Notes under the pieces: generated by a model
What the model was told of the DNA's origin: nothing
Database searches by the model: none
The model's input: the letters and a program-made list of their open reading frames with translations, nothing else
DNA from: Polytrichum commune
Taxonomy: Eukaryota > Streptophyta > Polytrichopsida > Polytrichales > Polytrichaceae
Length of the DNA stretch: 64,000 nucleotides
Direction of reading: 5' to 3'
NCBI GenBank assembly: GCA_950295325.1
Contig: OX485809.1
Coordinates: 36,647,081 to 36,711,080 of the forward strand
Position numbers and translations under genes: made by a program
Part shown: piece after piece, positions 41,160-55,294 of the stretch
How positions within the stretch are numbered: position 1 is the stretch's first letter
Layout of the letters: each line of letters begins with the position of its first letter

Positions 41160-42266
41160 CCCAAATAGGGCAGACATTAAGTCCCCCATACGAACTATGG
41201 GGGGTGTCAGATCCGGGCTGGGGCAGCCTCCTCAGAAATTTCTGAACCCGACCGAAAATTGTTGCCCGCCCCGCCCAACTTCGAAAAAAATATTGCTCTT
41301 GCATTCTTGAAGGTCGCTTGACTACAAATCTCATATTGAGTGCACTTCACCTTCAAGGTCTAAAATCCAATATATATGTGCACTTCCCACTAGTAAATAA
41401 CAATTCATTGGGATATCATTCCAGAAGTGAAACCATCAATGAAGGATGTAATTAACTTGGAGGTTATAATTTTTATGACTTACCATTTGAAATTGTCTTT
41501 GTCATTCTAAAGTGAAACCTAACTTTAGTGTGTTGATTTAGTATGTATATTTTATAATATTTTAGTCATGCCGTCTACTTTCATAAGTATTTATACACAT
41601 TCAAACCAATTAGGTGTGATTTAATGTAATTAAGTCTAATTAATTCTGATTAATTCTAATTAAGCCCAAATAAATCAGAAAGTATGCTTACCAAATTAAG
41701 TAAGACACTTTCAAATAATTACATTAAATCACACGTAATTATAAATTAATTAATTAATTCCAGTAATTACATTAATTTGATTTGAGTGTGTATGAATACT
41801 TGTGAAAGTAGATGGAATTACTAAATTAATTGTAAAATATACATACTAAATCAGCACACTAAATTTAGGTTTCACTTTAGAATGACAAAGACAATTTCAA
41901 ATGGTAAGTCATAAAAATTATAACCTCAATGTTAATAAGGATTTTGTAATTTTATTTGACCTCCAAGTTAATTACATGCTTCATTGATGGTTTCACTTCC
42001 GGAATGATATCCCAATGAATTGTTATTTACTAGTGGGAAGTGCACATATATATTGGATTTTAGACCTTGAAGGTGAAGTGCACTCAATATGGGATTTGTA
42101 GTCAAGCGGCCTTCAAGAATGCAAGAGCAATATTTTTTTTTCGAAGTTGGGCGGGGCGGGCAACAATTTTTGGTCGGGTTCAGAAATTTCCGAGGAGGCT
42201 GCCCCCGCCTGGATCTGACACCCCCCATAGTTCGTATGGGGGGACTTAATGTCTGCCCCCAAATAG
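41160..42266. mobile_element. foldback MULE (1,089 bp) with ~530-bp arms and 9-bp target duplication
   Basis: The element spans 41169-42257. It begins GGCAGACATTAAGTCCCCC and ends with the complement. CCCAAATAG is directly repeated at 41160-41168 and 42258-42266, the 9-bp size of Mutator-like elements. The two arms match over nearly their whole length at high identity (for example TTGTTGCCCGCCCCGCCCAA in both) and meet near 41690-41740. No transposase, so it is non-autonomous. A transcript across it would be a long hairpin RNA. The perfect duplication implies a fairly recent insertion. Confidence 0.93.
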
Positions 42267-47027: not shown

Positions 47028-47903
47028 TTGATTATCCTATTAAGTGCGTGTCACTATTCTACAATTTGGGCGAACCAACCCATACACTCGTTTCTTGCTG
47101 GATGTCAAAACCCTTGCCTCCAAGGAACGAGTGTACGGGTTGTTTCATCCTAACCTAACTCCGAGTTATGACTACTATTTGGAGCTATGACTACGATTTG
47201 GGCGAACCAACCCATACACTCGTTCCTTGTTGGATGCCTAAACCCTTGCCACCAAGGAACCAATGTACGGGTTGCTTCGTCCCAACCCAATTCAGAGCTA
47301 TGACTACGATATGGGCGAACCAACCCATACACTTGTTCCTTGTTGGATGCCTAAACCCTTGTCTCCAAGGAACCAGTGTACGGGTTGTTTCACCCCAACC
47401 CTATTTGGAGCTATGACTACGATTTGGACGAATCAACCCACACACTCTTTCCTTGTTGGATGCCTAAACCCTTGTCTCCAAGGAACCAGTGTACGGGTTG
47501 TTTCGCCCCAACCCTATTTGGAGCTATAACTATGATTTGGGCGAAAAACCCATACACTCGTTCCTTGTTGGATGCCTAAACCCTTGCCACCAAGGAACTA
47601 GTGTACAGGTTGCTTCGCCCCAACCCTGTTTGGAGCTATGATTACGATTTGCGCGAACCAACCCATACACTCGTTCCTTGTTGGATGCCTAAACCCTTGC
47701 CTCCAAGGAACCAGTGTACGGGTCGTTTCGCCCCACCCTATGACTACTTCATGAGAATGTAATATTTTTCCAAGCAAAGTTATTTATGTTCTTTCATGTC
47801 CGAACAATCTACATAACTTTCATAAGTAAAAAATTCAACTCGTGAGTAAGACATTACTCCACTGCGTGACTCCGAATAGTAACACGCATTGATTGGGATG
47901 ATC
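47028..47903. mobile_element. FB2-family MITE expanded by an internal tandem array
   Basis: Left end TGATTATCCTATTAAGTGCG then TGTCACTATTC (47029-47060); right end GACTCCGAATAGTAACACGC then ATTGATTGGGATGATC (47868-47903), inverted to it. Other members are ~170-220 bp; this one is ~876 bp because the interior holds a minisatellite. Confidence 0.7.
47071..47745. repeat. tandem array of six palindromic ~113-bp units
   Basis: Unit starts (CGAACCAACC) at 47071, 47203, 47316, 47429, 47542 and 47654: period 113, first unit 132, fifth 112. Each unit pairs CCAACCCATACACTCGTTCC with GGAACCAGTGTACGGGTTG, 24 of 27 bp, around a ~23-nt loop. Because 113 is not a multiple of 3, apparent open frames here cycle through all frames and are not genes. 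Confidence 0.92.
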
Positions 47904-51642: not shown

Positions 51643-51989
51643 GTGGGTCCTCACCATTACAAGGTCACGGCTCTTGGCTCGTGTGTGAAGTGGCCCTAAT
51701 AAGGAACGATTCTCCGATTCATCAACTACCCATTTTTATACGTTCCCCTGCCACTTCCTGTTGCCCAGCTTGCAGACAGATATCATTTGGGCATGTTGGG
51801 CTCCCAGCCTCCCATGTCTCAGCATGCTTCTTCGCCAAGTTATGCTAAAACGGGCACATAATTAACTCACTCGGCTGAAGTTTCCAATTCGGGAAGAATT
51901 GGCGTCCCAGATGATAGGAAATGTAGAGGCAGCAGGCATGCTTGAATTCCGCCCGAGTGGATAAACGCCCCCAATCTCTCTATCATCTA

Positions 51990-52384
51990 GAGCATCCTCA
52001 GTCGGTCTAGGTAAAGCTCACTGCAAACCACAACCTATCTTTTGACTGACCTAAAATTAGAAAATGAAATTACCATCATTAGAAGCACACCTAAATAAAC
52101 GTGAGATATTTCTCAAGAAAAAAGAATTGTAAAAATTTGATGTAGGTGAAATCCCTCATTGAAAACACCATATTTTCAAAATTTAGAGGGAGTGCACCAA
52201 ATCTTGCTTTAAAATGGAAAGATCCTCCCACACTCCCTCCAAATTTTTGACATTTAGAGGGAGTGTGGGAGGATTTGTCCATTTTTAAGCAAGATTTGGT
52301 GCACTCCCTCTAAATTTTGAGCAATTTTAAGCAAGATAGGTCTTGGTTTGCAGTGAGCTTTACCTAGACCGACTGAGGATGCTC
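51990..52384. mobile_element. Tourist-like MITE (395 bp), possibly related to PIF/Harbinger
   Basis: Inverted ends of ~50 bp start GAGCATCCTCAGTCGGTCTA; the first eight bases equal those of the full Harbinger element at 6110. Flanks are CTA on the left and TAA on the right, so the target duplication is TA or a decayed TWA. A second foldback sits inside (52180-52320; TTTAGAGGGAGTG-type arms). Confidence 0.78.
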
Positions 52385-52663
52385 TAATAAGCTAAGTTAG
52401 CTTCTAAAAGCTTCTCCACTCCCATGCACGACCACATCCCACAATAAAATTTCATGTTCTTTTGAAAGTATGTAAGTTATGTATGCGGATTTCGTAAACA
52501 TCAACGACTGCTTTTCTTTTTGTCAAAAAACAAATAAGTCTCCAATGGATTGACAACGGACGGATGAAATGCTTAATCCTTTAAAGGTCGAAGCATTCAT
52601 CGCCAACTTTTGTCCATTCAAGTCTCGGTCTAATGGTTGAGGCATTTATAATCGATTGAATCA

Positions 52664-52816: not shown

Positions 52817-53327
52817 TAAGAGAGTTTGCATCTAATTAGGAGGAGTAATAGTCAAGAATTTTTTGATTTTTTTGGCCCTTACGAAGAGAGACAAATGGTA
52901 AGGAGACTGCAAAATTCAAAAAAAATCATAACCATGGAAAAAAAAATTGCTACAAATTTTGAAACGGTAAAGTTAGGGGAACACATAGTCAATCTATAAG
53001 TCAACCCATAACCGCTCATCTAAATGCTAATGCTTGGCTACTATGGTTGTCAAAACTCTTGTGAGGATTATCAATCACAAGCTGCCACCGCATAAACTTT
53101 GATTCTATTCACCTAAAACATACAAATATCATCCAGTTGGCATTACGTGACCCTAGTGAGCGATGAAATGAACTTGGTTGACTATGGATGCCTTGACCTT
53201 CATGGCAGTGCCTCAAGTTCCTTGAGTGACCATTTGAGCTCATCGACCCCACCTTGTTTATCAACGTTATAAACATCTTCATGCAAGATAGCCATGGCTA
53301 CTTTTAGCCGACCCTCATGCCTAGCAC

Positions 53328-53490
53328 TTCTGTAATGTAACTATACCTAGTTACCATCCTACGATGACGAGGCGTCCTCAACGACGAGGCTAATTGACAA
53401 TATGATATTGTAAAGTAACTACACCTAGTTGCCATCCTACGACGACGAGGCGTCCTCAACGACAAGGCTAATTGACAATGTGACATTTAA
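53328..53490. repeat. ~78-bp tandem duplication
   Basis: Two copies of a unit with ACGAGGCGTCCTCAACGAC and GGCTAATTGACAAT, differing at a handful of positions. Confidence 0.88.
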
Positions 53491-53625
53491 TGTATACCAT
53501 GATGACGAGGTTGGGTGTATGGACACCTAGTCATCGACGGTAGTGTCATTGTAAGGTAAATACCAATATTGATGGATAATTGAATATTCTAACCACATGT
53601 GCCAGTGTGTAAGCGGAGGATGATG

Positions 53626-53989
53626 GGAGCTAGACAACTCCTAGTTGAAGATGGATGGATTGGAGTTAGACAACTCCAGATTGACAACATGTGCACTGGA
53701 GTTAGACAGCTCCGCATATAGTGCATTGGAATTAGACCATTCCATATTGAGAACATGTGCACATGAGTTAGACAACTCTCGATGAGGTGCATTGGAGTTG
53801 GACCGCTCCAGAATTGGAAAGATGAATGTTATTCATTGGAGTTAGGCAACTCTTAATGAATAGATGGATCTAGTTGGAATTAGACAATTCCAACTAGAAG
53901 AATGAATGGATGAATTTAGTTGGAATTAGACAATTCCAACTAGAAAGAAGGATGGATGAATCCAATTGGAATTAGACAATTCCAATTGG
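53626..53989. repeat. array of ten short stem-loops with near-constant AGAC loop
   Basis: Loops at 53632, 53668, 53704, 53734, 53770, 53800 (GGAC), 53844 (AGGC), 53882, 53928 and 53974; spacing 30-46 bp. Stems: GGAGTT-AACTCC in the early units, CTAGTTGGAATT with AATTCCAACTAG at 53870-53897, and CCAATTGGAATT with AATTCCAATTGG at 53962-53989. Between units the two arms change together. No ORF. Function unknown. Confidence 0.88.
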
Positions 53990-54149
53990 AAGAATGAGAT
54001 TGAGATAAGAGATGGAAGAAGGTTCTAGAAGAACCAAAGATAGAAGATTCATAGTAGAACTAAAAGATAGAGCTATGAATATGATACTTTTACTATATGT
54101 AAAGATAGAAAGTAAAAGTAGTGCTTCGGCATAAGAAGAAGCTCGGGGG

Positions 54150-54177
54150 AGGAGAGAGGACCTTTGGTCTCTCTCCT
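54150..54177. repeat. hairpin AGGAGAGAGGACC / GGTCTCTCTCCT
   Basis: Twelve paired bases with one bulge around a TTT loop, shortly after the ten-unit array; smaller inverted pairs (GGTTC-GAACC, ATTCATAG-CTATGAAT) lie between. Confidence 0.7.
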
Positions 54178-54507
54178 ATGGTCGGGTGGTTGAGCTTTAA
54201 CCAAAACATACTTGGTCTATGATTGTTTTGGGTTGATACGTGTTAGTGTGGAAGTTGGTGATAAACCGGTGAGAGGTTCGTTACAACTTCCTTGTGTGCT
54301 TTTGCCTTTTGCATGCTTAACTGCACATGAAATTTAGACACACGCCTTAGCTTAAAGAAGAACGGTGCTTCTTGTGAGAGGTTGGTGAGGTGGGGGTTGT
54401 CCTTGGTGGGGTTAAGGTCTTTGATTACTCCTTACGTGACGGTGCTACACATCCGAGAGGCTCCACCTCCCCTCAAAGTGGGCACATGTCCCTTGGTTCT
54501 TGATTCA

Positions 54508-54580: not shown

Positions 54581-55294
54581 TGCCAAAAATAGTTTAGTCA
54601 TGTTCAAAAGCTCAATTAAAAATATTGACACCCCTCATGGTAGATTTGACCATACAAATGGAGACTTTCTAGAGTCATTATTGCCCATGCACATTTTCAA
54701 TTATTCATGCGTTCAAAATCATAAGATTATAACGTAAATGTGTACCGTAGCTCTCTAGCAGCCTGGGCACTATTTTGCCTAATAATCATTTGAAGTGTGA
54801 AAGTAAGTTAGGCAACTCATCAAATTACATTCTAAAACTGGGCAAATTCAAAACTAATTTAAAATAAGTTAAACATTTATCCAAGTCATTTCTATAATTC
54901 ATGAATGGTTTTCTTAAATTTCATCTATGGCGGCTACGATTAACCTAAACACTTCCCTTAACCAATAATCCTTGCCCTAAAGTTTGTCTTCTACTTGTAA
55001 GTCGGGGTTTTGCTTTGTGTGAGAGTTTTACAAAGTGATCCTTGTGAGAAACTATGCCACTTGCATTATTGTGATTTCATGCACTCTTTGTATGTTATTT
55101 CCTTTTTCTGGACACTCAACGAAATTAATTTCCCAAAAATTTAGACACCTTCAACATTAATTAGTTTTTGCCCAAGCTGCTAGAGAACTACGGTATATTG
55201 GTATTGTCAAACAACGATGACTGCCTAGATGGGGTTGATGCGGACTTAGTAATTACCACTCCAACCAAACCCACTGAGATCATATATATCAATA

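Follow-up and report, generated by a model that had tools for sequence, protein, structure and literature searches.

The closest known system to the array described here is that of the repeated motif (RM) boxes of Sireviruses (Ty1/copia). In the accessible part of PMC2829016 (Bousios et al. 2010), these boxes are described as palindromic; an element has 8 to 32 of them, of which the 3′ LTR holds 3 to 14. The first lies 200-400 bp into the LTR and the series spans 300-500 bp, upstream of the TATA box, 117 of 127 boxes falling in the upper half of the LTR. Tnd-1, like the locus studied here, is without CGG-CCG (same part of PMC2829016). Palindrome clusters in the LTRs of maize Sireviruses are targets of small RNAs (Bousios 2016, as cited in the available text of PMC10760457), and the excerpted text of PMC3316501 states that the BII boxes in the LTR of tobacco Tnt1 bind defence-induced DNA-binding factors. 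Here we analyse an array of ten palindromic units in Polytrichum commune, found within a 64-kb stretch of DNA (the window). The preliminary description of the locus knew of no named element like it; this stands for superfamily, motif and spacer, all of which differ, but palindromic boxes in LTRs as such have been described in Sireviruses, as the consulted portion of PMC2829016 reports.

All ten serial stem-loops of the preliminary description were recovered where it had placed them (Table 1). Their successive spacings are 36, 36, 30, 36, 30, 44, 38, 46 and 46, and units 8-10 are 46-bp tandem copies. With up to three mismatches allowed, the 16-base motif occurs 11 times in the window, 10 of these inside the array, against an expectation of 2.1, and none of 100 shuffles of the window reached 11 matches. 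The loop, previously described as fixed, is AGAC in eight units and departs from it in units 6 and 7 (GGAC and AGGC). Similarly, complementarity of the arms is complete in the perfect stems of units 8, 9 and 10, but six of the ten 6-bp cores (units 1, 3, 4, 5, 6 and 7) contain one or two non-Watson-Crick pairs. Neither an Rfam family match nor a tRNA was found in the window.

Table 1. Features of the array and of the LTR that carries it, in window coordinates.
Feature	Position	Strand	Basis or location
Target-site duplication ACTTC, left	53326..53330	.	
Solo LTR, 955 bp, TGTAATG...CGTTACA	53331..54285	+	Alignment to copies A and B; target-site duplication
Two direct repeats of 78 bp at LTR start	53331..53486	+	
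Ten palindromic boxes GGARTT-AGAC-AAYTCC, inferred U3	53626..53989	+	
Unit 1 (type 1), one core C.A mismatch	53626..53641	+	
Unit 2 (type 2), perfect core, 7-bp stem including one flanking pair	53662..53677	+	
Unit 3 (type 3), single T.G pair	53698..53713	+	
Unit 4 (type 4), loop-closing position T.C	53728..53743	+	
Unit 5 (type 5), 5-bp stem	53764..53779	+	
Unit 6 (type 6), GGAC loop	53794..53809	+	
Unit 7 (type e), 8-bp outer stem TATTCATT/AATGAATA, small internal loop, 5-bp inner stem, AGGC loop	53830..53862	+	
Unit 8 (type f), perfect 13-bp stem	53869..53898	+	
Unit 9 (type f), perfect 11-bp stem	53917..53942	+	
Unit 10 (type f), perfect 13-bp stem	53961..53990	+	
Two heat-shock-element-like palindromes, TTCTAGAA (54023-54030) and GAAGATTC (54043-54050)	54023..54050	+	Between array and TATA-like box
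TATA-like box CATAAGA (TATAAGA in several relatives), putative core promoter	54130..54136 (LTR 800)	+	Alignment of relatives
Hairpin AGGAGAGAG...CTCTCTCCT just past TATA-like box	54150..54177	+	
Target-site duplication ACTTC, right	54286..54290	.	

LTRs were suggested as the host structure by two array pairs in which the members share one orientation and lie 6.4 and 6.7 kb from each other. The LTR boundaries were set with two full copies, A (loci L009/L010) and B (L011/L012). ACTTC directly flanks both ends of the window copy, which is therefore a solo LTR, and no coding region accompanies it; element B carries CCTTC on both flanks. In copy A, the primer-binding site TGGTATCAGAGC, which we take to be of the iMet tRNA type, begins two bases past the 5′ LTR (L009:4098-4109), and the polypurine tract GAAGGGGGAGAT precedes the 3′ LTR in both copies. 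The open pol frame of copy A (L010) encodes, in order, the Pfam domains RVT_1, RNaseH, integrase zinc finger, rve, SH3_Tf2-1 and Chromo, the rve match scoring 24.9 bits, under the cut-off of 32.6. From the TG...CA ends of the LTR, the 5-bp duplication, the primer site, the polypurine tract and the domain order of the related copy, the window LTR is assigned to a Ty3/gypsy chromodomain retrotransposon. Between the LTRs of element A, 4 of 777 positions are different, and the array contains none of these. In element B, a single-base difference separates the two LTRs over 909 aligned bases, together with a 46-base gap around LTR 540-586; since this gap has the length of one unit, a whole unit was gained or lost at or after insertion.

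The array occupies LTR 296-659, ending 141 bp upstream of a TATA-like box, and from this position we infer that it lies in U3. Some form of the TATA-like box is present in 16 of the 17 relatives (of 21 supplied) that were aligned over the promoter region, although the form in the window copy is weak. The two short palindromes between the array and this box are exact in 5 (TTCTAGAA) and 8 (GAAGATTC) of the same 17 relatives, and a stem similar, by a simple pattern, to the hairpin just past the box recurs in 8 of them. The two palindromes resemble the consensus of heat-shock elements. Heat-responsive LTRs exist, ONSEN being one example.

Among overlapping 1,250-bp bins of the window, counted for stems with arms of at least 8 bp and loops of 3-30, the richest start at 53751 (210 bases) and 53126 (192), the mean being 32. 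The further inverted pairs previously noted up to about 54580 belong to the LTR of the array as far as 54285; those beyond lie outside the element. Other repeats occur elsewhere in the window: a MITE-like element at 54743-55195 with 27-bp terminal inverted repeats that are 93% complementary (TACCGTAGCTCTCTAGC...); another at 51988-52386 with 54-bp terminal inverted repeats at 96% and an inner palindrome of 145 bp; a long imperfect palindrome of 1.1 kb at 41168-42258, 84% identical to its own reverse complement; and tandem repeats at 47059-47741 with periods of 113, 132 and 225 bp, including about five copies of the 113-bp unit.

As RNA, the + strand of the array folds at -122.6 kcal/mol (z = -9.5), far beyond shuffles, and the whole LTR also folds strongly (z = -7.9). 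Such folding would suit a function of the transcript: near the 3′ end of the genomic RNA, Gag or a host protein would recognise the row of U3 stem-loops, with a role in packaging, stability or export. There is precedent for a structured 3′ element with a stabilising effect on the RNA of a plant retrotransposon, the Evade ENE (available part of PMC12501189). We nevertheless consider an RNA function rather unlikely, in part because the antisense strand folds equally well (z = -10.7). Two unit types also retain mismatches that pairing would not favour, with C.A in 29 of the 32 distinct units of type 1 and T.C in all 32 of type 6. Further evidence on both sides comes from the comparison of copies below.

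A search of the genome (407.8 Mb, 64 contigs) for arrays of the motif, as the preliminary description had advised, found the exact 16-base motif 643 times (322 and 321 on the two strands), against a single occurrence of the reversed control. Twenty places from the contig 1 motif list (L044-L063) were taken as 1.2-1.4 kb pieces and treated as putative LTR copies. Four of them (L047, L050, L053 and L057) align across about LTR 220-896, and one, L056, gave no alignment of at least 60 bases to the window LTR. Most of the others align over the array only, several also near LTR 761-866, a block that surrounds the TATA-like box and is common to several relatives otherwise aligning poorly. Recurring unit types are found even in the poorly aligning loci of this set, and the same types recur across arrays that are about 10-30% diverged. 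The units are thus not merely the product of two or three recent duplications, as had been allowed for, although units 8-10 are indeed tandem copies. The palindromic array is real and old, and, judging from these alignments, the array and the core promoter look like long-lived parts of the LTR. Separately, for nine loci (L066-L071, L082, L085 and L091) the alignment to the window copy is confined to roughly LTR 218-896; their LTR ends differ while array and promoter are common, as if parts of LTRs had been exchanged.

We then asked how far the two arms of a unit match. From 420 distinct units, with loci L001-L008 excluded from the counts as duplicates, 12 unit types were defined by 40-base context. 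Outer arms match those of their own type beyond what the common core accounts for: 52 of 144 positions are paired, whereas swapping right arms between types leaves 35.4 ± 4.5 (p = 0.0001); over the nearest seven outer positions the count is 28 of 84 against 20.3 (p = 0.008). Without types f and c, p is 0.0085 for twelve positions and 0.096 for the nearest seven, and without f, c and e it is 0.012 and 0.085. In the core, a pair that switches between G-C and A-T is matched in 595 of the 643 intact cores and reads G.T in 20 and A.C in 28. These counts come from related copies and are not independent; the similar numbers of G.T and A.C are as expected from decay at the DNA level.

In the 420 pooled units, the two top-scoring of 780 column pairs are stem pairs (E = 0.23 and 2.3), and the mean score in register is 36.8, compared with -9.4 to 3.6 in slid registers. 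A covariation check of these units with a tree-based null returned no pair at E < 0.05, and type f alone yielded no significantly covarying column pair. Stems covary between units, as had been proposed, in so far as unit types differ from one another, but not within the same unit followed through its copies (see below). Where units of a single array show matched differences, these mainly reflect inheritance from distinct unit types. For the core switch pair, a bound dimer would not need both arms to switch, and descent from two unit classes would give the observed matching.

To follow single units through related copies, we took 68 loci, each covering LTR 290-700 in a single alignment; 23 were identical to others, and the remaining 45 with the window gave 46 rows. 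Loci L094-L108 (15) raised the set to 61 arrays. The tree tests drew on four of L044-L063 (L047, L050, L053 and L057) and left out the remaining 16, and three group-2 rows present in an earlier round were removed from the tree set. In these 61 arrays, which belong to the window's group, masking took out 53 of the 610 unit rows, the misaligned units being chiefly 7 and 9. Internal branches represent active lineages and terminal branches mostly decay. At internal nodes, a Watson-Crick change on both sides was found in one of 90 stem pairs, where 0.81 and 1.11 were expected on two trees. This pair, in unit 10 and eight pairs out from the loop-closing pair, changed from G-C to A-T, passing through G.T on the FastTree tree. 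Arms within orthologous units change independently, the outcome that the preliminary description had itself named as refuting joint change of the arms, and no continuing process of matched change is visible within the window's array family. That two-sided changes stand at chance level also counts against an RNA function.

The core and loop behave differently from the rest of the unit. We compared core and loop with spacer and flank by parsimony on these copies from one genome, and the ratio was lower on internal than on terminal branches in all three trees: 32/191 vs 147/525 (p = 0.016), 36/184 vs 175/432 (p = 0.0002) and 36/178 vs 160/449 (p = 0.005). Core and loop are conserved on internal branches. 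Outer stems displayed no such conservation in the same trees (internal/terminal 26/53, 22/67 and 25/65). Stems also seemed to be gained along the trunk towards the window copy, which looked like improvement of the outer stems; we set this aside as ascertainment bias, the pairs having been defined on the window copy.

If pairing in the sense RNA were selected, active lineages should tolerate G.U more than A.C. Counts of new G.U/A.C/other mismatches, after masking, were 14/6/3 on internal and 46/44/38 on terminal branches (p = 0.036 for G.U against the rest, 0.14 against A.C); slid-partner controls for these counts were noisy, for example 11/5/1 at +1. With trees built free of stem and loop columns the tolerance was gone: 15/8/3 vs 54/47/36 on the first (p = 0.13 against the rest, 0.36 against A.C) and 13/10/6 vs 50/44/33 on the second (p = 0.68 and 0.82). 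Two earlier, unmasked counts, 12/2/1 internal vs 28/29/33 terminal and 25/7/6 vs 54/51/43 (p = 0.0016, or 0.0032 with another tie-break), had looked like strong RNA selection, in large part through misaligned units; masking weakened the signal to the p = 0.036 above, and it was gone with the stem-free trees. Selection on RNA structure, one of the three causes first suggested for the array, thus left no robust signal in this test.

Some observations still lean towards RNA. G.U is frequent, as in the second pair from the loop of type f (70 of 139 distinct units), and at one outer pair of type f G.T exceeds A.C genome-wide by 37 to 10, in related copies whose counts are not independent. In addition, outer stems are specific to the unit type. 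A narrower variant would have the hairpin itself read by Gag or a host protein, with each unit type presenting its own matched outer stem around a fixed AGAC loop at the RNA 3′ end; we regard this as unlikely. Among the matches listed in our literature search, no title dealt with a plant retrotransposon whose U3 holds several hairpins recognised in this way.

Matched arms could also be a functionless by-product of mutation, if template switching during DNA replication or reverse transcription copied one arm onto the other; the hairpin-templated repair of the preliminary description is of this kind. The mechanism has been documented for RNA hairpins (consulted part of PMC8794818), the window copy contains perfect arms of 11-13 bp, unit number shifts quickly, and four same-branch two-sided Watson-Crick changes fall on terminal branches of the first tree. 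On internal branches, however, such changes numbered 0, 1 and 0 in the three trees. Inversion of the spacer is one product of switching between arms, as the accessible text of PMC8604942 describes, and it is all but absent here: of 908 four-base loops (overlapping loci counted), 695 read AGAC and one GTCT, although foldback switching would spare the loop. Conservation of core and loop on internal branches speaks for selection instead, and we judge template switching to be a quite improbable source of the matching.

Finally, the chief role of the hairpins might lie in host silencing, where they would give rise to small RNAs or be targeted by them. Palindrome clusters in Sirevirus elements draw an excess of small RNAs, according to the available part of PMC10760457. 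Such a role would come at a cost to the element and would leave the retention of core and loop on internal branches unexplained; we consider it improbable.

Taken together, the array is probably a row of cis-regulatory boxes, palindromic in form and set in the LTR U3 of a Ty3/gypsy chromodomain retrotransposon with many copies, whose promoter they would enhance. Conservation of core and loop on internal branches favours sequence-specific cis-regulatory boxes, and the conserved, asymmetric AGAC loop with its kept orientation fits sequence recognition of the core better than selection for pairing. Each box probably binds a dimeric plant DNA-binding protein, and together the boxes would work as an enhancer with several sites, or as a responsive region, for the promoter of the retrotransposon, with transcription driven from the TATA-like box. 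Among the causes originally put forward, the two-fold symmetric protein-binding site is thus the best supported, as a prediction from core and loop conservation. Whole repeats are gained and lost, probably through slippage or recombination, and unit types, each with its own matched outer arms, are mixed and multiplied. Sequence recognition of the core does not account for the outer stems; a dimer site alone would not give type-specific complementarity beyond the 6-bp core, which forms runs of 0 to 7 pairs.

Titles on palindromic arrays in Ty3 or chromovirus LTRs were absent among the matches listed in a literature search covering only a minority of subscription journals, and searches with short motif strings returned only other topics among the matches listed. 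That a Ty3 chromodomain family has a layout similar to that of the RM boxes but an unrelated motif suggests more than one origin of such arrays. The family has many copies, both solo and LTR-paired, and through them one can ask whether it is a protein or the hairpin that maintains the palindromy.

Relative to the known systems, the array resembles the Evade (Copia93) ENE, as presented in the accessible part of PMC12501189, in that both are structured and lie close to the RNA 3′ end in a plant LTR retrotransposon. The ENE forms a triple helix with the poly(A) tail and its function is shown by deletion, whereas the locus here is an array of stem-loops. With the palindrome clusters of maize Sireviruses, as far as the available source describes them, it shares a cluster of short-loop palindromes in the LTR control region and strong predicted folding. 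Those clusters belong to copia elements with a CACCGGAC-type motif, and their small RNAs were measured in maize. The Tnt1 BII boxes likewise lie in the promoter region of an LTR, binding being stated, in the part of the source available, for Tnt1. Tnt1 is a Ty1/copia element, unlike the Ty3/gypsy host of the present array.

Likeness to the Sirevirus RM boxes, within the part of their description at hand, extends to dyad symmetry, number, start, extent and relation to the TATA box, with ten boxes over LTR 296-659 in our case. Six of the ten units start before the midpoint of the 955-bp LTR, compared with 117 of 127 RM boxes in its upper half. The host here, in contrast, is Ty3/gypsy with a chromodomain and an integrase after RT, not Ty1/copia. 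The RM boxes have, in the same partial source, a CGG-CCG core and a CpG island; the array has GGARTT-AAYTCC and 3 CpG in 364 bp. It also has a fixed asymmetric 4-base spacer, AGAC, and several unit types with their own extended outer arms. Since superfamily, motif, CpG content and spacer differ, the array is not a member of the Sirevirus RM group, the system to which it otherwise comes closest.
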